A DNA stretch of 64,000 nt from Rhodospirillales bacterium (GTDB lineage: Bacteria; Pseudomonadota; Alphaproteobacteria; Acetobacterales; Acetobacteraceae): positions 1-64,000 of the forward strand of contig JANYDF010000118.1 of assembly GCA_025359905.1 (NCBI GenBank), read 5' to 3'. The position numbers and the translations under genes were made by a program. The notes beneath the pieces were generated by a model. It did not search any database. It saw only the letters and a program-made list of their open reading frames with translations, and was not told where the DNA came from. Positions 53,745-64,000 of the stretch are shown in pieces (position 1 is the first letter of the stretch; each line of letters starts with the position of its first letter).

Positions 53745-54104
53745 CGGTTTGCCGGATGCCTGGCAATTCCGCACCTACCGCTACTGCATCGTGCTGGCCC
53801 GTTTTTGGGCCGGGCTGGCGTTCGCCGAAGACCCCGGAGGAGCGAGCACGCTGGCCTGCGCTGCGATCGCCATGGCGGTGGCCGCCGCCGTCGCCCGCTG
53901 CGGCCGCGCGAGCGTAAAATCGGCGAACGATCACGAAATTTTTATGTTTTAGGAATCAAATGCCTAAGGCGTGAAAGCTGACAATCGTCCGATTTTGTGG
54001 TCGCGCAGTCCTTACGAACGATTGCGATTTGATACCCAGTACGGTAAGGCGTTCGTCTCAATCGACTAGCTAAAATTGGCAGTTTTGCGCGGGGACGCAC
54101 AACG
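53745..54104. other. Intergenic region, no supported gene
   Basis: 360 bp between the terminator and the SdrD-type gene. A 67-codon open frame from TTG 53749 exists, but it begins in the terminator tail and has no recognisable features. The second half (about 53920-54090) is clearly AT-richer than the rest of the window and probably carries the promoter of the following gene, though I cannot point to -35/-10 boxes with confidence. Confidence 0.4.
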
Positions 54105-57036
54105 ATGGCCGGCGTCACAACGATTATCGCAACCACCGTTTATAACGACAGCAACGCCGACGGTGTGCAGGACAGCGGTCAACACGCTGGCCGCTGGCGA
54201 TACGGCGAACGCCATTGAGGGCGTGTATCTGCCGGCCACCTTCACGACTCACGTCTACACGGACGCCAACGGCAACAGCACGCAGGACGGCGGCGACAGC
54301 AACCTCGCCAACGTCAAGGTAACGCTGGAGAACGCGGCCGGTGTGGTGCAGTCCACCGCGACCACCGACGCCAACGGCAACGTGACCTTCGGCGGTCTGG
54401 CCCCGGGCGGATACCAGGTGGTGATCGGCACCCCGGCGGGCGATGTGACGACGCAGGTCACCAATGTCGGCACGGTGAACGTATTGCCGTCGGGCGGCAC
54501 GGCGAACGCCATCGAAGGCGTCTATGTGCCTGCGACGTTCAACACCCATGTTTATCTCGATGTAAACGGCAACAGCACCCAGGACACCGGCGACACCAAC
54601 CTCGCTGGCGTGAAGGTGACGCTGCTGACCGGAACGGGCGCTCCGACCGGCAAGACGGCGACCACCGATGCCAGCGGCAATGTGTCGTTCACCAATCTGG
54701 TGCCCGGCAGCTATGAAGTCACCGTGCTGACGCCTGCGGGCGACACGGTCACCCAGCTCACCAATGTGGGCGTGGCAAATACGCTGGCGCCCGGCGGCAC
54801 CGCCCTGGCGATTGAGGGCGTGAAGCCGCCCGCCAGCACCACTGGTATTTCGGTGCTGAAGCTGCCGGCCTCCGTTGCTATCGCCACGTGCCAGACCGCC
54901 ACGTACACGTATCTGGTCACCAACACCGGCAGCACGCCGCTCGGCAACATCACAGTGGTGGACAACCACGGCACGGCGGCGAGTCCGGACAACGTCAAGG
55001 CCGTCGCGGTGCTCAGCGGCGGCTACAACATTGGCGACGTCAATCACGATGGGCTGCTGCAATCGGGTGAGACGTGGCAGTACACCGCGTCGATGACCGA
55101 AACCGGCGGTGCCGGCAGCGGTGCGTGCTCGCTGACGCACAAACTCAACAACTGCAATATCACCAGCGGCAAGACCGCGTGGCTCAGCACGTGCTTCAAG
55201 CCAACATCGACATCCGATGGCGCGACCTACGCCTTCAAGGGCGTCAAAGTGTGCGTCACTGGCACCGGCGGCCAGACGATCAACGAGACCTGCGGCGACT
55301 CGTACGTGAAGTTCTCCAAGGGCTGCACATCGCCCACCACCACCTGGGACGATAGCCAAAAGGCGTGGTGCACCACGCTGCCGGCCAATCAAAATTGCGG
55401 CAACGTGTTCCTGAGTGGCATTCCGGTTCAGGTCCCGTCGGGCTGCAACCTGTCGAACGCCACCGTCACCTGGACGATTGGCAGCAGCGCCAACAATTGC
55501 GGCTCGTCGAACGTGTCGTGGCAGGGTTCGGCCGGCGGTTACAACAACTTCGACCAGAACGGCTGCTATGGCTCCAGCGACAACAATCAGATTGGCGTGC
55601 AGCCGTGCGATAACGCGGCGAGCAGCGGCTGCGGCAGCTGGGGCACCTGGGGTGGCGGCTGCGGCAGTTGGGGCAGCGGCTGGGGCAGCGGCTGGGGCAG
55701 CAGCTCGCAGGGCTGCGCCGGCACGCCAAGCAACCAGAACACCTGGGGCAATTGCTGCTCTGGCAGCAACAATGGCCAGACCAGCGGCAGCTGCACGCTG
55801 CCGCAGGGCCAGCTTGGCAGCACCTCGGCGGTGGATATCGTCACCGCCACCGGCACGCCGATGACGGCGGCGCCGTCGTGCTCGGTCACGCATCATCTGA
55901 GCAATTGCGGCCTCGACAGCGGCAAGACCGCTTGGCTCAGTTCCTGCTTCAAGCCGTCCTCGACCGCCGATGGCGCGACCTACACCTTCAAGGGCGTGCA
56001 GGTCTGCATCACCGGCACCGGCGGCTCGCCCATCACCAAGGATTGCGGCAATTCCTCCGTGACGTTCTCCAAGTCCTGCACGACCGCCAACACTGTTTGG
56101 GACACCAGCAAAGGCGCGTGGGTCACCACGCTGCCGGCCGGGCAGACATGCGGCAATGTGTTCCTGACCGGCGTGCCGGTGCAGGTGCCGTCCGGCTGCA
56201 ATCTGTCGAACGCGACGGTCACCTGGAACACCCAAAGTGCGAGCAACAACTGCGGCGCCACGTCGTTGCAGTGGCAGACCTCGTGCAGCAGCTATGGCAG
56301 CTTCAATAAGGGTGGCTACGACGCCAACAGCGACTACAACCAGATCGGCGTGAAGCCGTGCGACGGCAGCAGCGGCGGCAGCAACTGGCAAACCTGCGCC
56401 GGCACGCCGACGGTGCAGAACACCTGGGGCAATTGCGGCTCCTCGCAGTCGTCCGGCAGTTGCGCGCTGGTGGCGGGCACCGCGATCAGTGCGACGGATA
56501 TCAAGGAAATCCAGGTGCTGGCTTGCAACAGCCCGATCACGGTGAATGGCGCGACCCCGGCTGGCGTGCTGACCAGCCTGTATGGCAATGCCACCAAGCT
56601 CGAATTCAGCTACAACCCATCCAGTAGCGTGTCGGTGAAGTCGTTGCAGGCGGGCCTTGGCACCGTGACCGGCAATACGCCTTCGGCCAGTGCCTTTATT
56701 CTGATGACCAACAACAGCAACGCGGCTTCGGCCAGTGCGCAAATCTTCTTCGAAGGCAACGTGCAAACCGGCGAGAAGATCTATGCCGACGCCACCACCA
56801 ACATCATCACGATGACGGCCCAGCCGGCCGCAAACAACCACTTCAGCACCACGCCGGGGGCCGATCTGTACGCCCATGTCTACGCCAGCCAGCAGGCTTT
56901 CCTGGCCGGTAACGCGCCGGTGCAGGAGATCGCCTACAACGTCAGCGGCAGTCAGGCGATGAACTTCGGCGACCAGATCGGCAGCCTGACGGTCATCGGC
57001 TACGTCGGCACCACCGGCGGGCATCTGGTTTCGTAA
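54105..57036 (+). CDS. SdrD-B / DUF11 / Cys-rich repeat surface-type protein, 5' end frameshifted
   Basis: A large extracellular-type protein. The apparent start at 54105 (MAGVTTIIATTVYNDSNADG) begins an SdrD-B repeat, but this frame stops after 38 codons. The rest of the protein reads on from about 54180 in the +1 frame (open from 54076 to 57036). Two full SdrD-B domains follow (HVYTDANGNSTQDGG and HVYLDVNGNSTQDTG types), then a DUF11-like domain (ISVLKLPASVAIATCQTATY) and two Cys-rich modules of about 200 residues. A unique C-terminal domain ends TTGGHLVS. The first repeat lacks about 60 residues relative to repeat two, so a deletion shifted the frame. There is no N-terminal signal peptide, so a type I or other export route would be needed. 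It is probably a pseudogene unless recoded. Confidence 0.7.
55123..56470 (+). repeat. Duplicated Cys-rich module in the SdrD-type gene
   Basis: Copy 1 (about 55123-55805) and copy 2 (about 55873-56470) encode parallel sequences with SGKTAWLSTCFKP / SGKTAWLSSCFKP, GNVFLSGIPVQVPSGCNLSN / GNVFLTGVPVQVPSGCNLSN and NQIGVQPCD / NQIGVKPCD. Copy 1 carries an extra Gly-Ser-Trp-Cys low-complexity stretch (GSWGSGWGSGWGSSSQGC). I cannot name a family for the module; its even spacing of Cys suggests disulfide-linked beta domains. Confidence 0.8.
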
Positions 57037-57186: not shown

Positions 57187-58485
57187 ATGTCCGACGCTTC
57201 CAGTCCGCGCCACACCAGCCGTATCCTCGGCATGGCCACCGCAGCGCCGCCGCACACGCAGCGCGGCGTGGTGCCGTTGGACGGCGCGATCATGGCGCGC
57301 ATGGCGGAAATCGACCTTGATACTCTCACCCGCTACCGGCTCGGCCGGTTGCGCGCCGAACTGCGCAAGCGCGACTTCGCCGGTGCTGTGCTGTCCGACC
57401 CGATGAACCTGCGTTACGCCACCGGCACCCGCAACATGGCGGTGTGGACCGCCCACGCGCCCAGCCGCTACGCCTTTGTCGCCACCGATGGGCCGGTGAT
57501 TTTGTTCGAATTCACCTCATCCAAACACGTCTCGGCCGGATCGCCGGTCGTGGACGAAGTACGGCCCTGCACGCCGTGGATTTACTTCCTCGCCGGGCCG
57601 CGCACTGAGGAAAAGGCGCATCTATGGGCCGACGAGATCGAAAGCCTGCTGCGCCAGTACGGCGGCAATAACCGCCGCCTCGCGGTGGATCGCTGCGACC
57701 CGCTCGGCGCGCTGCGGCTGCATTCGCACGGCGTGCAGTTGTTCGACGTGCAGGAAGCCGCCGAGCAGGCCCGCATGGTGAAATCCACCGAGGAATTGGC
57801 CTGCATGCAGTCCGCCATGGACGTGTGCGACGCTGCCATCGTCAATATGCGCGCCGCCCTGACGCCGGGCATCACCGAGAATCAGTTGTGGTCGCTGCTG
57901 CACGAAACCAACATCGCGCATGGCGGAGAGTGGATCGAATGCCGCCTGTTGTCGGCCGGCCCGCGCACCAATCCGTGGTTTCAGGAATCGTCCGACCGGG
58001 TGATCCAGGCCGGTGAACTGGTCGGCTTCGACACCGATCTGGTCGGCCCATTCGGCTACCTGGCCGATATTTCCCGCACCTGGGTCTGCCCCGGCAAACC
58101 GCCGACGGACCGGCAGCGTAAGCTGTACGACATCGCCACCCAACAGATTCTGCATAATTGCAGCGTGTTGAAGCCGGGCGTCAGTTTCCGCGAATTCTCT
58201 GGCGAGTGCTGGCCGGTGCCGGAAGAATACGTGCCCAATCGCTACATGATGATGGTGCACGGCTGCGGCTTCGTCGACGAATACCCCTCGATCGCCTACG
58301 CCGCCGATTGGAAGGATTGGGGCTACGACGGCATGTTCGAGGAGAACATGGTGGTGTCGGTGGAAAGCTATATTGGTGAGGTTGGTGGTGCGGACGGGGT
58401 GAAGCTGGAGCAGCAGGTGGTGATCACCGCCAATGGCGCGAAATTGCTGTCGCGCACGCCGCTGATCGATGCGTTGATCCCGTGA
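57187..58485 (+). CDS. M24 family metallopeptidase-fold protein, DddP-like
   Basis: A 432-residue creatinase/aminopeptidase-P-fold protein. Its C-terminal domain strongly resembles the DMSP lyase DddP: HGGEWIECRLLSAGPRTNPW, FDTDLVGPFGYLADISRTW and MMMVHGCGFVDEYPSIAY. Metal ligands D282, D284, D294, H358, E393 and E408 and candidate catalytic D364 and Y353 all sit at a constant offset of 13 from the published Ruegeria DddP numbering as I recall it. It could cleave DMSP to acrylate and DMS, or be a related M24 enzyme for an amino-acid derivative. The next gene (OCD family) overlaps by four bases, so the two act together. An upstream in-frame ATG within the first 40 codons is possible. Confidence 0.8.
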   Translation: MSDASSPRHTSRILGMATAAPPHTQRGVVPLDGAIMARMAEIDLDTLTRYRLGRLRAELRKRDFAGAVLSDPMNLRYATGTRNMAVWTAHAPSRYAFVATDGPVILFEFTSSKHVSAGSPVVDEVRPCTPWIYFLAGPRTEEKAHLWADEIESLLRQYGGNNRRLAVDRCDPLGALRLHSHGVQLFDVQEAAEQARMVKSTEELACMQSAMDVCDAAIVNMRAALTPGITENQLWSLLHETNIAHGGEWIECRLLSAGPRTNPWFQESSDRVIQAGELVGFDTDLVGPFGYLADISRTWVCPGKPPTDRQRKLYDIATQQILHNCSVLKPGVSFREFSGECWPVPEEYVPNRYMMMVHGCGFVDEYPSIAYAADWKDWGYDGMFEENMVVSVESYIGEVGGADGVKLEQQVVITANGAKLLSRTPLIDALIP

Positions 58486-59393
58486 AACTGGTCGATGCCG
58501 CCACGGCGGACCGCCTGCTCGACTTTCCCTCGTTGATCGAAGCGCTGCGCGAGGGCCACCGCCACGATATGGACGATGCCGGACGGCTGCTGTTGTCGTC
58601 TGGTTCGGATCGTTTCCTGGCTATGGCGGCGTGGCAGCGCGCCGCCGGGTTCGGGGTGAAACTGGCCACCGTGTTTCCCGGCAACGCTGCGCTCGGCAAG
58701 CCGAACATCGCCAGCGTCTACGTGCTGTTCGACGGCGGGGACGGCAGCGCCCGCGCGGTGATCGACGCCACACCGCTGACGGTGCGCAAAACCGCCGCCG
58801 ATTCGGCGCTGGCCGCCGACTATCTGGCGCGCCGCGATGCCGCGACGCTGCTGATCGCCGGTGCGGGCGCGCAGGCGCGGTGGATGGTGCAGGCGTTTCG
58901 CGCCGTGCGGCCCAGTCTGCAGCGCGTGTTGATCTGGAACCGCACGCCGGAGCGTGCGGCGGCACTGGCGCAGGAACTCGGCGGCGAACTGGTCACCGAC
59001 TTGCCGGCGGCGGTGGCGGCTTCGGATATCGTGTCGTGCGTGACGGCGAGCACGACGCCGGTGGTGCACGGCGCATGGCTGCGGCCGGGCACGCATCTGG
59101 ATCTGGTCGGCGGCTACACACCCGACATGCGCGAGGCTGACGACGAAGCGGTGCGGCGGGCGCGGGTTTACGTGGATACGCGCTGGTACACGCTGCGCGA
59201 CGCGGGGGATATTTTTCAGCCGTTGCGCGATGGCGTTATTGCCGAAGCCGATGTGCTGGCCGACCTGTTCGAACTGGTGCGCGGCACCGTGCCGGGCAGA
59301 ACGAACGATAGCGAAATCACCCTGTTCAAGAATGCCGGCGGCGGCCATCTGGATTTGATGGCGGCCGGGTTGATCGCCGCCAGACTCCGATAG
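58482..59393 (+). CDS. Ornithine cyclodeaminase / mu-crystallin family protein
   Basis: A 303-residue NAD(P)-binding protein. The start MKLVDAATADRLLDFPSLIE, GFGVKLATVFPGNAALGKPN (substrate Lys in VKLAT), AVIDATPLTVRKTAADSALA and Rossmann motif LLIAGAGAQARWMVQAFRAV are typical. Family members include ornithine cyclodeaminase, ketimine reductase and delta-1-pyrroline-2-carboxylate reductase; the last would feed proline to the putA gene that follows. The GTG start overlaps the M24 stop. It is transcribed toward the PutA operator. Confidence 0.88.
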   Translation: MKLVDAATADRLLDFPSLIEALREGHRHDMDDAGRLLLSSGSDRFLAMAAWQRAAGFGVKLATVFPGNAALGKPNIASVYVLFDGGDGSARAVIDATPLTVRKTAADSALAADYLARRDAATLLIAGAGAQARWMVQAFRAVRPSLQRVLIWNRTPERAAALAQELGGELVTDLPAAVAASDIVSCVTASTTPVVHGAWLRPGTHLDLVGGYTPDMREADDEAVRRARVYVDTRWYTLRDAGDIFQPLRDGVIAEADVLADLFELVRGTVPGRTNDSEITLFKNAGGGHLDLMAAGLIAARLR

Positions 59394-59399
59394 CACCTC

Positions 59400-59433
59400 G
59401 GGTTGCACCTTTGCTATGAAGCAGGTGCAACCC
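59400..59433. promoter_or_regulatory. PutA operator (inverted GTTGCA boxes)
   Basis: GGGTTGCACC (59400-59409) and GGTGCAACCC (59424-59433) form a perfect 10-bp inverted repeat with a 14-bp spacer. Each half contains GTTGCA, the hexamer bound by the ribbon-helix-helix domain of E. coli PutA. The site fills the 51-bp gap just before putA, whose product has an N-terminal ribbon-helix-helix domain. Autorepression relieved by proline is the expected mode. Confidence 0.85.
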
Positions 59434-59444
59434 GCGAGGCCGCC

Positions 59445-62400
59445 ATGTCCACCACCCTTGGCTTGAAAGTCGATGAGGCGCTGCGCGCACGAATTCGAAC
59501 GGCCTCCGACACGACCGGCCGCACGCCGCACGCGCTGATCAAGCAGGGCTTGCTGGCGCTGCTCGACCGCATCGAGCGCGGCGAGAATATCGATTTGGCC
59601 GAGGACATGCCCGACGCTGCCGCGCCGCAGCCGTTCTTGGCGTTCGCGCAATCTGTGCAGCCGCAATCGGTGCTGCGCGCCGCCATCACCGCCGCGTATC
59701 GCCGCCCGGAGCAAGACTGCGTGCCGGTGCTGCTGGCCAGCGCGGCACTGCCCGAAGCAGCGGCGGGCCGGGCGCGGGCGTTGGCGCTGCGGCTGGTGGA
59801 GACGCTGCGGCAGAAGCGGCCATCGGGCGGCGTTGAGGGGCTGATTCAGGAATTTGCGTTATCCAGTCAGGAAGGTGTGGCGCTGATGTGCCTCGCCGAG
59901 GCGTTATTGCGTATCCCTGACCGGGCGACGCGCGACGCGCTGATCCGCGACAAGATCGGCGTGGGCGACTGGCAGGCGCATATCGGCCAAAGCCCGTCGT
60001 TGTTCGTCAACGCCGCAGCCTGGGGCTTGATGATTACCGGAAAGCTGGTCGGCACCAGCAGCGAATCCGGCCTGTCGCACGCGCTGACCCGGCTGATCGG
60101 GCGCGGCGGCGAGCCGTTGATCCGCAAGGGCGTCGATATGGCGATGCGGCTGATGGGCGAGCAATTCGTCTGCGGCCAGACCATTGCCGAGGCGCTGGCC
60201 AACAGCCGCCGCCTGGAAGCGCGCGGCTTCCGCTATTCGTACGACATGCTGGGCGAGGCGGCGGCGACCGCCGAGGACGCCACGCGCTATCTGGCGGCGT
60301 ACGAGCAGGCCATTCACGCCATCGGCCGTGCGGCGGACCGGCGCGGGATTTACGAAGGCCCTGGTATATCCATCAAACTCTCGGCGCTGCATCCGCGCTA
60401 CACGCGGGCGCAGTCGGGGCGGGTGATGCAGGAATTACTGCCCCGGCTGCACGCGCTGGCGGTGCTGGCGCGGCGCTACGACATTGGCTTCAACATCGAC
60501 GCCGAAGAAGCCGACCGGCTGGATATCTCGCTCGATCTGCTGGAGGCGCTGTGTTTCGACCCGGCGCTGGCGGGCTGGAACGGCATCGGTTTCGTGGTGC
60601 AGGCGTATCAGAAGCGGGCGCCGCAGGTGATCGAGTTCCTGATCGATCTGGCGCGGCGCAGCGGTCACCGGCTGATGGTACGGCTGGTCAAAGGCGCTTA
60701 CTGGGACAGCGAAATCAAGCGCGCGCAGGCCGATGGCTTAGAGGGCTTTCCGGTCTACACGCGCAAGATTTACACCGACGTGTCGTATCTGGCCTGCGCT
60801 CGCAAGCTGTTGTCGGCGCCCGACGCCGCGTTCCCGCAATTCGCCACCCACAACGCGCTGACGCTGGCGCAGATTCATGAGCTGGCGGGCGGCAACTTCT
60901 ACACCGGCCAGTACGAATTCCAGTGCCTGCACGGCATGGGCGAGCCGCTGTACGAAGACGTAGTCGGGCGCGACAAACTCGACCGGCCCTGCCGGGTGTA
61001 TGCCCCGGTCGGCACGCATGAGACGCTGCTGGCCTATCTGGTGCGGCGTTTGCTGGAAAACGGCGCCAATACCTCGTTCGTCAATCGCATTGCCGATCCG
61101 CGCGTGCCGTTGGATGATCTGGTTGCCGACCCGGTGACACTTGCTGCGGCCATGCAGCCGCAAGGCGCGCCGCACGCGAAAATCGCTGCCCCGCGCGCAC
61201 TGTTCGGCGTGGAACGCGCCAACTCGGCCGGATTGGATTTTTCCAACGAGCAGCGCCTAGCCTCGCTATCGGCGTCGCTGCTGGCCAGCGCCGGAATGGA
61301 ATGGCAGGCGGGCAGCGGCCCCATGCGCCCGGTGCTGAACCCGGCCGATCTGCGCGACGTGGTGGGCCAGGTTGGCGAATGCAGCCCGGAGCAGGTCGAT
61401 GCCGCGCTGGCCGCCGCCGTGCATGAGGGCGCTGCGTGGCAAGCCACCCCGCCAGCGGAACGCGCCGCCTGCCTGCTACGCGCCGCCGATGCGCTGGAGG
61501 CCGCCGGGCCGCAGTTGATGGGGCTGATCGTGCGCGAGGCGGGCAAGACCTTGCCGAACGCGCTGGGCGAAATCCGCGAGGCGGTGGATTTTCTGCGCTA
61601 CTACGCCCGCCAAGCCGAGGGTTTCGGTGCTGACACGCATCGCCCGCTCGGCCCGGTGGCGTGCATCAGCCCGTGGAACTTTCCGCTGGCGATCTTCACC
61701 GGACAGGTGGCGGCGGCGTTGGCGGCGGGCAATCCGGTGCTGGCGAAACCGGCCGAGGAAACGCCGCTGATCGCGGCGCAGGCGGTGCGCCTGCTGCATG
61801 CGGCCGGTGTTCCGAGTGCAGCACTGCAACTGTTGCCCGGTGACGGGCGCGTGGGCGCGCAACTGGTGGCCGGCGCGCGGGTGCGCGGCGTGGTGTTCAC
61901 CGGCTCCACTGAAGTTGCGCGGCTGATCCAGCGCAGTCTGGCCGGGCGGCTCGATCCGCAGGGCCGGGCGATCCCGCTGATTGCCGAAACCGGCGGGCAG
62001 AACGCGATGATCGTCGATTCATCGGCGCTACCCGAGCAGGTGGTGGCCGACGCGCTGGCCTCGGCGTTCGACAGCGCCGGGCAACGGTGTTCGGCGCTGC
62101 GCATTCTGTGCGTGCAGGCCGAAGCCGCCGAGCGGGTGCGCACCATGCTGTTGGGCGCCATGGCTGAAATCGCTGTTGGTAACCCGGACCGATTGGCGGC
62201 CGATGTGGGCCCGGTGATCACCGCCGAAGCGCGCGACCGTATCGTGGCGCATGTCGAAGCGATGCGCGCACGCGGCTTCGTGGTGCATCAACTGGATTTG
62301 CCGCCCGCTTGCCGCCTGGGCTTCTTCGTGCCGCCCACGCTGATCGAAATCGACAAGATCGCCGATGCCGGCGGCGAAGTGTTCGGCCCCGTGCTGCATT

Positions 62401-63245
62401 TCCTGCGCTACCGGCGCGAGGCGCTGGAGGCGCTGGTGCAGGACATCGGCGCCACCGGCTATGGCCTGACTTTCGGCGTGCACTCGCGCATCGACGAGAC
62501 CATCGCCAGGGTCTGCGAACACATTCATGCGGGCAATATCTACGTCAATCGCAATACCATCGGTGCGGTGGTTGGTGTGCAGCCGTTCGGCGGTCAGGGC
62601 TTGTCGGGCACAGGTCCGAAAGCGGGCGGGCCGCTGTATCTGCACCGTTTGCTGGCGCAGTGCCCACCCTTGGAGGTGGAAGGCGCCACCCCGCCCGCCG
62701 CAGCCCTCGCCTGGGCCGAATTCGTCGCCACGCGGCAACCGGTGGGGCCGGTGCGCGATTGCGAGGCGCTGCTGGCCCGTTGCCCGCTGCAAGCGCCGCG
62801 CGAACTGCCCGGCCCGGTGGGCGAGCGCAACGTCTATGCGCTGACCCCGCGCGGCACGGTGCTGTGTCTGGCGCAAGATGTGCAAGGCATGTGCCGCCAA
62901 GTGATGGCAGCCTTGGTTACCGGCAACCGCGCACTGGTGCTGCCGCCGCCGGATGCGTTGAACATGCTGGGTTTCCTACCCGCCGCATTGCGGCCGCAGG
63001 TGCAAGTGATCGGCGACCCGGACGGGGCGGCGTTCGATGCGGTGCTGTTCGAAGGCGACAGCGACGCGCTGGCCGCGTGGTGCCGCCGGTTCGCGGCGCT
63101 CGAGGGACCGATCGTGCCGGTGCACGGCATGCCACGCAATGCGGATGCGGCGGCCTACCCGCTGGAATGGCTGCTGCACGAACGCAGCATCAGCACCAAC
63201 ACGGCGGCAGCGGGTGGCAATGCCAGTTTGATGTCGATTGGGTGA
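59445..63245 (+). CDS. putA: Trifunctional PutA: regulator, proline dehydrogenase and P5C dehydrogenase
   Basis: Oxidises proline to glutamate and represses its own gene when proline is scarce. 1266 residues. The ribbon-helix-helix DNA-binding domain covers residues 1-46 (TTLGLKVDEALRARIRTASD). Proline dehydrogenase spans about residues 180-510 (YDMLGEAAATAEDATRYLAA, IYEGPGISIKLSALHPRYTR, GHRLMVRLVKGAYWDSEIKR). P5C dehydrogenase spans about residues 600-1020, with SPWNFPLAIFTGQVAAALAA, E848 in IAETGGQNAM and catalytic C882 in GQRCSALR. An extra C-terminal domain makes it the long PutA class. The ATG at 59445 is 11 bp after the operator. Confidence 0.97.
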   Translation: MSTTLGLKVDEALRARIRTASDTTGRTPHALIKQGLLALLDRIERGENIDLAEDMPDAAAPQPFLAFAQSVQPQSVLRAAITAAYRRPEQDCVPVLLASAALPEAAAGRARALALRLVETLRQKRPSGGVEGLIQEFALSSQEGVALMCLAEALLRIPDRATRDALIRDKIGVGDWQAHIGQSPSLFVNAAAWGLMITGKLVGTSSESGLSHALTRLIGRGGEPLIRKGVDMAMRLMGEQFVCGQTIAEALANSRRLEARGFRYSYDMLGEAAATAEDATRYLAAYEQAIHAIGRAADRRGIYEGPGISIKLSALHPRYTRAQSGRVMQELLPRLHALAVLARRYDIGFNIDAEEADRLDISLDLLEALCFDPALAGWNGIGFVVQAYQKRAPQVIEFLIDLARRSGHRLMVRLVKGAYWDSEIKRAQADGLEGFPVYTRKIYTDVSYLACARKLLSAPDAAFPQFATHNALTLAQIHELAGGNFYTGQYEFQCLHGMGEPLYEDVVGRDKLDRPCRVYAPVGTHETLLAYLVRRLLENGANTSFVNRIADPRVPLDDLVADPVTLAAAMQPQGAPHAKIAAPRALFGVERANSAGLDFSNEQRLASLSASLLASAGMEWQAGSGPMRPVLNPADLRDVVGQVGECSPEQVDAALAAAVHEGAAWQATPPAERAACLLRAADALEAAGPQLMGLIVREAGKTLPNALGEIREAVDFLRYYARQAEGFGADTHRPLGPVACISPWNFPLAIFTGQVAAALAAGNPVLAKPAEETPLIAAQAVRLLHAAGVPSAALQLLPGDGRVGAQLVAGARVRGVVFTGSTEVARLIQRSLAGRLDPQGRAIPLIAETGGQNAMIVDSSALPEQVVADALASAFDSAGQRCSALRILCVQAEAAERVRTMLLGAMAEIAVGNPDRLAADVGPVITAEARDRIVAHVEAMRARGFVVHQLDLPPACRLGFFVPPTLIEIDKIADAGGEVFGPVLHFLRYRREALEALVQDIGATGYGLTFGVHSRIDETIARVCEHIHAGNIYVNRNTIGAVVGVQPFGGQGLSGTGPKAGGPLYLHRLLAQCPPLEVEGATPPAAALAWAEFVATRQPVGPVRDCEALLARCPLQAPRELPGPVGERNVYALTPRGTVLCLAQDVQGMCRQVMAALVTGNRALVLPPPDALNMLGFLPAALRPQVQVIGDPDGAAFDAVLFEGDSDALAAWCRRFAALEGPIVPVHGMPRNADAAAYPLEWLLHERSISTNTAAAGGNASLMSIG

Positions 63246-63758: not shown

Positions 63759-63852
63759 GCGCCGCATCTATCCTGCGGCGCGACATCTGCTTTCCTGTGC
63801 GTGGACAGGCGTCCACGGCGAAGCTAGGGTGCGCCGCATCTTGGAGGAAACC

Positions 63853-64000
63853 ATGACGATTCAACGCACTCAGGTTGGCCCGCGTATGAGCCAGGCCGTG
63901 GTTCACAACGGCACCGTGTATCTGGCCGGGCAGGTCGCCCTCGATAACGCCGGCAAGTCGGTGACCGAGCAGACCAAGGAAATTCTTGGCCGCATCGATG
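63853..64000 (+). CDS. RidA family protein (N-terminal part, cut by window end)
   Basis: 49 residues are visible, starting MTIQRTQVGPRMSQAVVHNG and continuing with TVYLAGQVALDNAGKSVTEQ, the typical RidA/YjgF start with its Gly-Gln-Val strand. RidA proteins hydrolyse reactive enamine/imine intermediates; neighbours that handle pyrroline and imine chemistry (OCD family, PutA) make this role fitting. A good TTGGAGGAA ribosome site precedes the ATG. The C-terminal part, including the substrate Arg, lies beyond the window. Confidence 0.9.
   Translation, partial: MTIQRTQVGPRMSQAVVHNGTVYLAGQVALDNAGKSVTEQTKEILGRID

Follow-up and report, generated by a model that had tools for sequence, protein, structure and literature searches.

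Within the window, by which is meant the whole 64,000-nucleotide stretch of DNA analysed, two genes at 57187-59393 occupy overlapping open frames on the forward strand. Gene A (57187..58485, +) encodes a DddP-like metalloenzyme of the M24 fold with 432 amino acids (PF00557, 5e-30). Gene B (58482..59393, +), which starts with GTG and overlaps gene A by 4 nt, encodes a 303-residue protein of the OCD/mu-crystallin family (PF02423, 3.2e-52), a probable ketimine reductase. The next gene is putA (59445..63245, +, from an ATG; the frame is already open from a TTG at 59403), and a RidA-family gene begins at the window edge (63829..64000, +), continuing to contig position 64200. The RidA-family match (PF01042, 8.9e-28) spans 63883-64200 of contig C42, which means that it is cut by the window end; the gene is also called in L226 (56-75 kb of the contig) and scores 69 bits on TIGR00004, under the cut-off of 106. 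The pairing with an OCD-family gene beside putA and ridA, described in the first-pass annotation, is therefore borne out. Upstream, at 54076-57036 of the window, an extensive frame encodes SdrD_B-like, SpaA-like, and DUF7467 domains and probably specifies a surface protein; the opposite strand has an open frame of 992 aa.

The product of gene A consists of Peptidase_M24 and Creatinase_N domains (Pfam). Its best solved relatives are the DMSP lyases RlDddP (4rzy) and RdDddP (4b28), with E values near 1e-84 to 1e-83, followed by a prolidase at 1.9e-16. A structure prediction (pLDDT 89.3) matches DddP 4rzy with a fold Z of 47.2, an Xaa-Pro dipeptidase with 36, creatinase with 33.7, and EutD/DoeA with 33.5. 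Gene A stays under the cut-offs of several family models. The DddP model NF043017 (an NCBIfam equivalog) gives 362 bits against 600, a shortfall of 238 bits; the ectoine hydrolase model NF038259 gives 36.9 against 575; and the prolidase and aminopeptidase models give at most 59.6 against cut-offs of 393-630.

The residues of the DddP active site, with numbering and roles (six metal ligands, Tyr366, and Asp377) as given in PMC4108388, all have counterparts in gene A. D282, D284, D294, and Y353 align with DddP D295, D297, D307, and Y366, and H358, D364, E393, and E408 align with H371, D377, E406, and E421. The offset is 13 for all eight, so the constant spacing reported at first sight is confirmed, and the agreement, judged on aligned sequence, is far above chance. 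In an alignment of 111 rows (108 DddP-like and three distant outgroup), D295, D307, H371, E406, and E421 are present in 108/108 DddP-like rows, D297 and Tyr366 in 106 each, and Asp377 in 87, the window protein included. Since the eight residues are common to most of the 108 proteins, they are a family trait and no pointer to DMSP. One position does separate the groups: residue 103 (DddP numbering) is Ala in all 21 rows of a ‘broad DddP’ group picked by hand from the tree, in contrast to Tyr in the 12 window-clade rows.

Xaa-Pro dipeptidases and aminopeptidase P (M24B) share with gene A the pita-bread fold, five metal ligands, and proline-related neighbours. They differ in the histidines that they carry besides the metal ligand. 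When gene A is aligned with Pyrococcus prolidase 1pv9, the LPHG histidine falls on W264/F265 and the IHEW histidine on D364; we take both histidines to be catalytic in peptidases. Gene A thus has two histidines replaced and an extra Asp ligand, the third acidic ligand D297, which together with Tyr366 belongs to the broad DddP-like family. With these replacements and the low model scores, prolidase was rejected as an identity for gene A. Placement with Xaa-Pro dipeptidases or creatinases, named beforehand, together with a lack of lyase activity, as the refuting outcome, did not occur: DddP is closest both by sequence and by predicted fold.

The phylogeny against DddP places gene A outside DddP proper. 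A quick tree of 111 rows was drawn from 202 hits (173 distinct; 8 of 71 SAR11 loci retained, L251 absent), and in it the window belongs to a clade of 12 rows (SH-aLRT 99) that is distinct from that of DddP. A careful tree used 46 of these rows, chosen by hand, with L201 standing in for DddP proper (E 1.5e-270 to RlDddP, 4rzy) and with L251 and fungal DddP absent; its 11 window-clade rows form one group (100/100), and forcing them together with the four core DddP rows is rejected in this 46-row tree (p-AU 2.45e-6). The window protein shares 36.7% identity with L201 (35-37% with the DddP lyases RlDddP and RdDddP) and 48.2% with L206, which exceeds the DddP cut-off with 632 bits. Distance alone is no argument against activity, because a functional fungal enzyme, FgDddP, is only 32% identical to RdDddP according to PMC4108388 and the tree has no fungal row. 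The tree and AU placement, together with the replaced histidines, indicate that gene A is neither a core DddP nor a standard peptidase. Its fold family is already known, and its clade is a new form within that family.

DddP-like genes are much more common than DddP itself. In the class-level sample, 87/385 genomes match the DddP model at E 1e-20, of which 12 reach the 600-bit cut-off and 75 fall under it. Single genomes carry up to four matching genes, four being the most scored per genome. Close homologues of gene A are rare; at E 1e-100 they occur in 7/395 genomes of the order, the window's genome included.

A DMSP lyase outside marine roseobacters had been one of the two functions suggested for gene A, and the evidence does not support it. 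Scores under the DddP cut-off, separation from the core clade in the quick tree, and the AU test led to rejection of gene A as a DddP member. Among 17 genomes searched for DMSP genes (seven DddP and ten window-clade), dmdA is above cut-off in 4/7 DddP genomes versus 0/10 window-clade genomes, and acuI in 6/7 versus 2/10 (G157 and G390). Neither gene is above cut-off in the six pair-bearing genomes searched (G000, G035, G422, G503, G505, and G685; the genome of L031 lay outside the search). A close relative without the OCD gene, L166, has a DMSP_lyase-family cupin (L166:6332-6928, +; PF16867 2.9e-58; DddQ 4la2 at E 2.3e-9) directly before its gene A homologue. The L166 genome has acuI above cut-off, and an OYE-type gene and a betaine-type ProV/W/X-like transporter lie close by. 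A phmmer search at E 1e-3 across L001-L220 for a cupin partner of this kind returned L166 itself only.

Gene B scores as a pyrroline-2-carboxylate (P2C) reductase, passing the P2C/Pip2C reductase model (NF004793, PRK06141) narrowly with 326.8 bits against a cut-off of 322. Four of the six pair partners scanned pass this cut-off (L032 322.3, L033 338.5, L035 331.1, and the window), and two, L034 (298.5) and L141 (314.1), fall under it. Another OCD copy in the window's genome reaches 191.8 bits, and gene B itself reaches 127.6 bits on the EutC model, far from the cut-off of 471.65. The catalytic Asp of ornithine cyclodeaminase lies within a GG-D motif, where gene B, read on its own, has GGY. OCD-family proteins found near trans-3-hydroxyproline dehydratases reduce the proline ketimine with NADPH, as described in PMC4113996.

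Conservation of the gene pair was examined across the family. An OCD gene directly follows gene A, with nothing between, at 7/13 window-clade loci (the window, L031-L035, and L141), a count that includes L031, where the contig stops within the OCD gene, and that becomes 6/13 under a 50% coverage filter. The OCD gene is missing at the other 6/13. The pair occurs in 0/75 other DddP-like windows (71 and four core DddP) and in 0/71 SAR11 loci. Gene B homologues are widespread, with 41-59% identity in 106/385 genomes of the class, and 0/18 fetched neighbourhoods contain an M24 match; 13/18 contain an ihfB-like gene (named by eye). Gene B may therefore be a general P2C reductase. Among the matches listed in a literature search, one title could bring M24 and OCD proteins together, that of the ectoine paper PMC3187862.

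The genes around the pair concern proline. PutA is trifunctional, comprising proline dehydrogenase, P5C dehydrogenase, and repressor: it scores 2033.9 bits on PRK11809, above the cut-off of 1750, and has RHH (PF21775), Pro_dh, and Aldedh domains. It follows gene B at 4/13 window-clade loci (the window, L032, L033, and L034). Between gene B and putA is an inverted repeat, CGGGTTGCACCT / AGGTGCAACCCG (59399..59434), a candidate PutA operator with 12-nt arms that are 100% complementary and 12 nt apart. It is the one match in the window, where 0.07 are expected, and 7/100 shuffles had a match. The GTTGCACC / GGTGCAAC cores also precede putA in L032, L033, and L034, where the core starts are 34 bases apart versus 24 in the window, about one helical turn less. 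GTTGCA is presumably the PutA operator core. A palindrome with PutA-type cores in this position suggests that putA is probably autoregulated from its own promoter and need not be co-transcribed with genes A and B.

At 6/13 clade loci, no more than 0.9 kb upstream of gene A, there is an ABC transporter of the SBP_bac_5 type whose ATPase is fused; it abuts gene A in L033, L034, L141, and L251, and one gene intervenes in L031 and L032. In the window's genome, the best match of the transporter binding protein is on another contig (C24, 69% identity). An OYE-type flavoenzyme gene lies within 0.8 kb of gene A at 3/13 clade loci: in L251 it neighbours gene A, in L141 it follows the OCD gene, and in L166 it precedes the cupin gene. 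Beyond the window end, the forward strand carries RidA, DadA (PRK00711 459.7 bits, cut-off 383), an EutA-like gene about 7 kb away (TIGR02990 223 bits, cut-off 318), and an AcnX split into large and small chains. DadA after PutA is found at 2/13 clade loci, including L033. The AcnX pair (L226:12130-13790, contig C42 68129-69789, same strand as the window genes) begins 9.6 kb from where gene A ends and 4.9 kb past putA; its large and small chains reach 381 and 91 bits, and the cut-off of the one-chain model is 700. It is preceded by a DUF563-like protein (named by eye), which also precedes AcnX in G422 (contig C492) and G423 (contig C44). As far as seen, AcnX and the A-B pair share a contig in the window's genome only; judged by length, C492 is not the contig of L033, and C44 is not that of L034. 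Judged by sequence, the RidA, DadA, transporter, AcnX, and PutA surroundings all point to imino acids.

These surroundings resemble the catabolism of trans- and cis-3-hydroxyproline, in which a substrate is dehydrated, reduced, and oxidised. An OCD-type P2C reductase with PutA and an AcnX pair on the contig are common to both. The dehydratases named in PMC4113996 and PMC5144071 differ from gene A, being of the proline-racemase family, AcnX, or the enolase superfamily and not M24. AcnX type I converts cis-3-hydroxyproline to P2C, as PMC5144071 shows; the AcnX here is split and under the model cut-off, and may differ from type I. AcnX may itself supply gene B and be its real partner.

The separate branch of gene A within the DddP family, combined with the proline-breakdown neighbours, suggests that it probably works on a proline-like compound. 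The reading that we tentatively prefer starts from the modelled fold, the eight residues, the two lost histidines, the recurring pair, the P2C-reductase-like partner, and PutA, from which we infer the elimination chemistry, the substrate class, the transporter role, and the order of the pathway. Gene A would be a dimetal enzyme from the DddP-like part of the M24 fold and would no longer hydrolyse peptides. The peptide-type ABC transporter would bring in a small zwitterionic carboxylic acid, to be bound by gene A, which would take the alpha proton, as in the mechanism proposed for DddP, and remove a leaving group beside the carboxylate. This would yield an enamine or a cyclic imine of the pyrroline-2-carboxylate type. 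Using NAD(P)H, gene B, made from the overlapping frame, would reduce this product to L-proline or a closely similar compound, which PutA would oxidise to glutamate. A DddP site followed by a ketimine reductase may be best accounted for by elimination beside a carboxylate and subsequent reduction, a judgement made with reserve. Several observations weigh against this reading: gene B homologues abound in neighbourhoods without M24, so that B may be general; putA has its own candidate operator and may be a separate unit; the binding protein of the transporter has its best match on another contig; nearly half of the clade loci are without the OCD gene; AcnX, a known way to P2C, lies in the same region; and creatinase and EutD, which are relatives within M24, act by hydrolysis of C-N bonds.

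The last point leads to a possible but rather doubtful alternative, that gene A is a hydrolase of the creatinase or ectoine hydrolase type, which would take an N-substituted imino acid conjugate brought in by the transporter, cleave a C-N bond in it, and so free proline or a hydroxyproline for B, DadA, and PutA. The peptide-type transporter upstream in 6/13 clade loci, the fold matches to creatinase and EutD/DoeA, and the EutA-like gene downstream are consistent with it, as is the ectoine pathway, where EutC (OCD) and EutD (M24) occur together and the M24 and OCD genes share one region as they do here. However, both genes score far under the models of that pathway, and gene A was rejected as an ectoine hydrolase on its 36.9 bits. 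The loss of two M24 peptidase histidines and the gain of a third acidic ligand also argue against hydrolysis, and a plain hydrolase leaves the reductase in the next overlapping frame unexplained. An ordinary Xaa-Pro dipeptidase is highly improbable: the Pfam domains, nearby PutA, and the peptide-type transporter of relatives would suit it, but the peptidase models score low, two histidines are replaced, and the fold is nearer to DddP (Z 47) than to a dipeptidase (36).

A divergent DMSP or DMSOP lyase is decidedly unlikely. All eight DddP residues, the cupin beside the homologue in L166 in a genome with acuI, the 48.2% identity to L206, and the activity of distant FgDddP speak for it; they are set against a score of 362 bits, the AU test (on a tree without fungal DddP), no dmdA or acuI above cut-off in the six pair-bearing genomes searched, and partner genes that concern proline. 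It is also quite unlikely, if somewhat less so, that gene A acts on a quaternary ammonium compound or N-methylated amino acid of the betaine class, a role that the DddP-like family at large may have, with B and PutA handling the demethylated imino acid. A gene of the DMGDH, Rieske, MttB, BHMT, or ProX type is found in 22/71 other DddP-like windows versus 0/23 controls (18 OCD loci and five stretches of the window's genome, including L229 and L230 around proline-racemase-family genes; Fisher p 0.0012), a comparison that is biased and indicative only, since the markers were drawn from DddP-like loci, the controls are mainly OCD loci, and some of the 71 windows overlap. The same markers occur at 5/13 window-clade loci, with ProX at 3/13, and SAR11 homologues of gene A adjoin Rieske, DMGDH-like, and homocysteine S-methyltransferase-domain genes. 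Against this, all five markers are absent from L226 and from the other six pair-bearing loci. They occur in 1/4 core DddP windows; a DMGDH-type gene is in 1/4 and an OYE-type gene in 1/4, and such neighbours are therefore not peculiar to the branches outside DddP. The broader suggestion of the first-pass annotation, that gene A may be a lyase or hydrolase of M24 type acting on a derivative of an imino or amino acid, agrees with the context (a P2C-reductase-like partner, PutA, RidA, DadA, and a peptide-type transporter in relatives).

A wider and unlikely extension of the elimination reading is that the DddP site is a general beta-elimination centre and not an invention for DMSP. Members of the clade would then be metal-dependent eliminases of a new kind, dehydratases or lyases acting on a proline-type imino acid with a 3-substituent, and would work with a ketimine reductase and PutA in an undescribed route of imino acid breakdown. 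If true, this would give a clue to the origin of DMSP lyase activity. Counts of DddP in ocean surveys and genomes go by resemblance, and the residues by which it is recognised belong to a much larger family, whose members, SAR11 included, are often near betaine and methylamine genes. Should the clade work on an imino acid, it would be a tractable outgroup for the evolution of DMSP lyase activity and a warning against DMSP lyase calls made from metal ligands alone.

The SAR11 loci (L039-L041 and L043-L110, e.g. L043:6746-9155) each have a DddP-like M24 gene whose product is 44-50% identical to the window protein, and the SAR11 rows L039, L043, and L106 are 36-39% identical to core DddP L201. 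In L043, a Rieske oxygenase gene comes immediately before the homologue, and the DMGDH-like and homocysteine S-methyltransferase-domain genes lie further upstream. No literature linking M24 with DMGDH, Rieske, and SAR11 was found. The window's genome also has two proline-racemase-family genes on other contigs (C20 and C111). At what we take to be the two motif positions, the protein of L222 (G000 C111) has Ser and Thr, and the other copy, L221, has Cys and Cys; the L222 protein is possibly a 3-hydroxyproline dehydratase.
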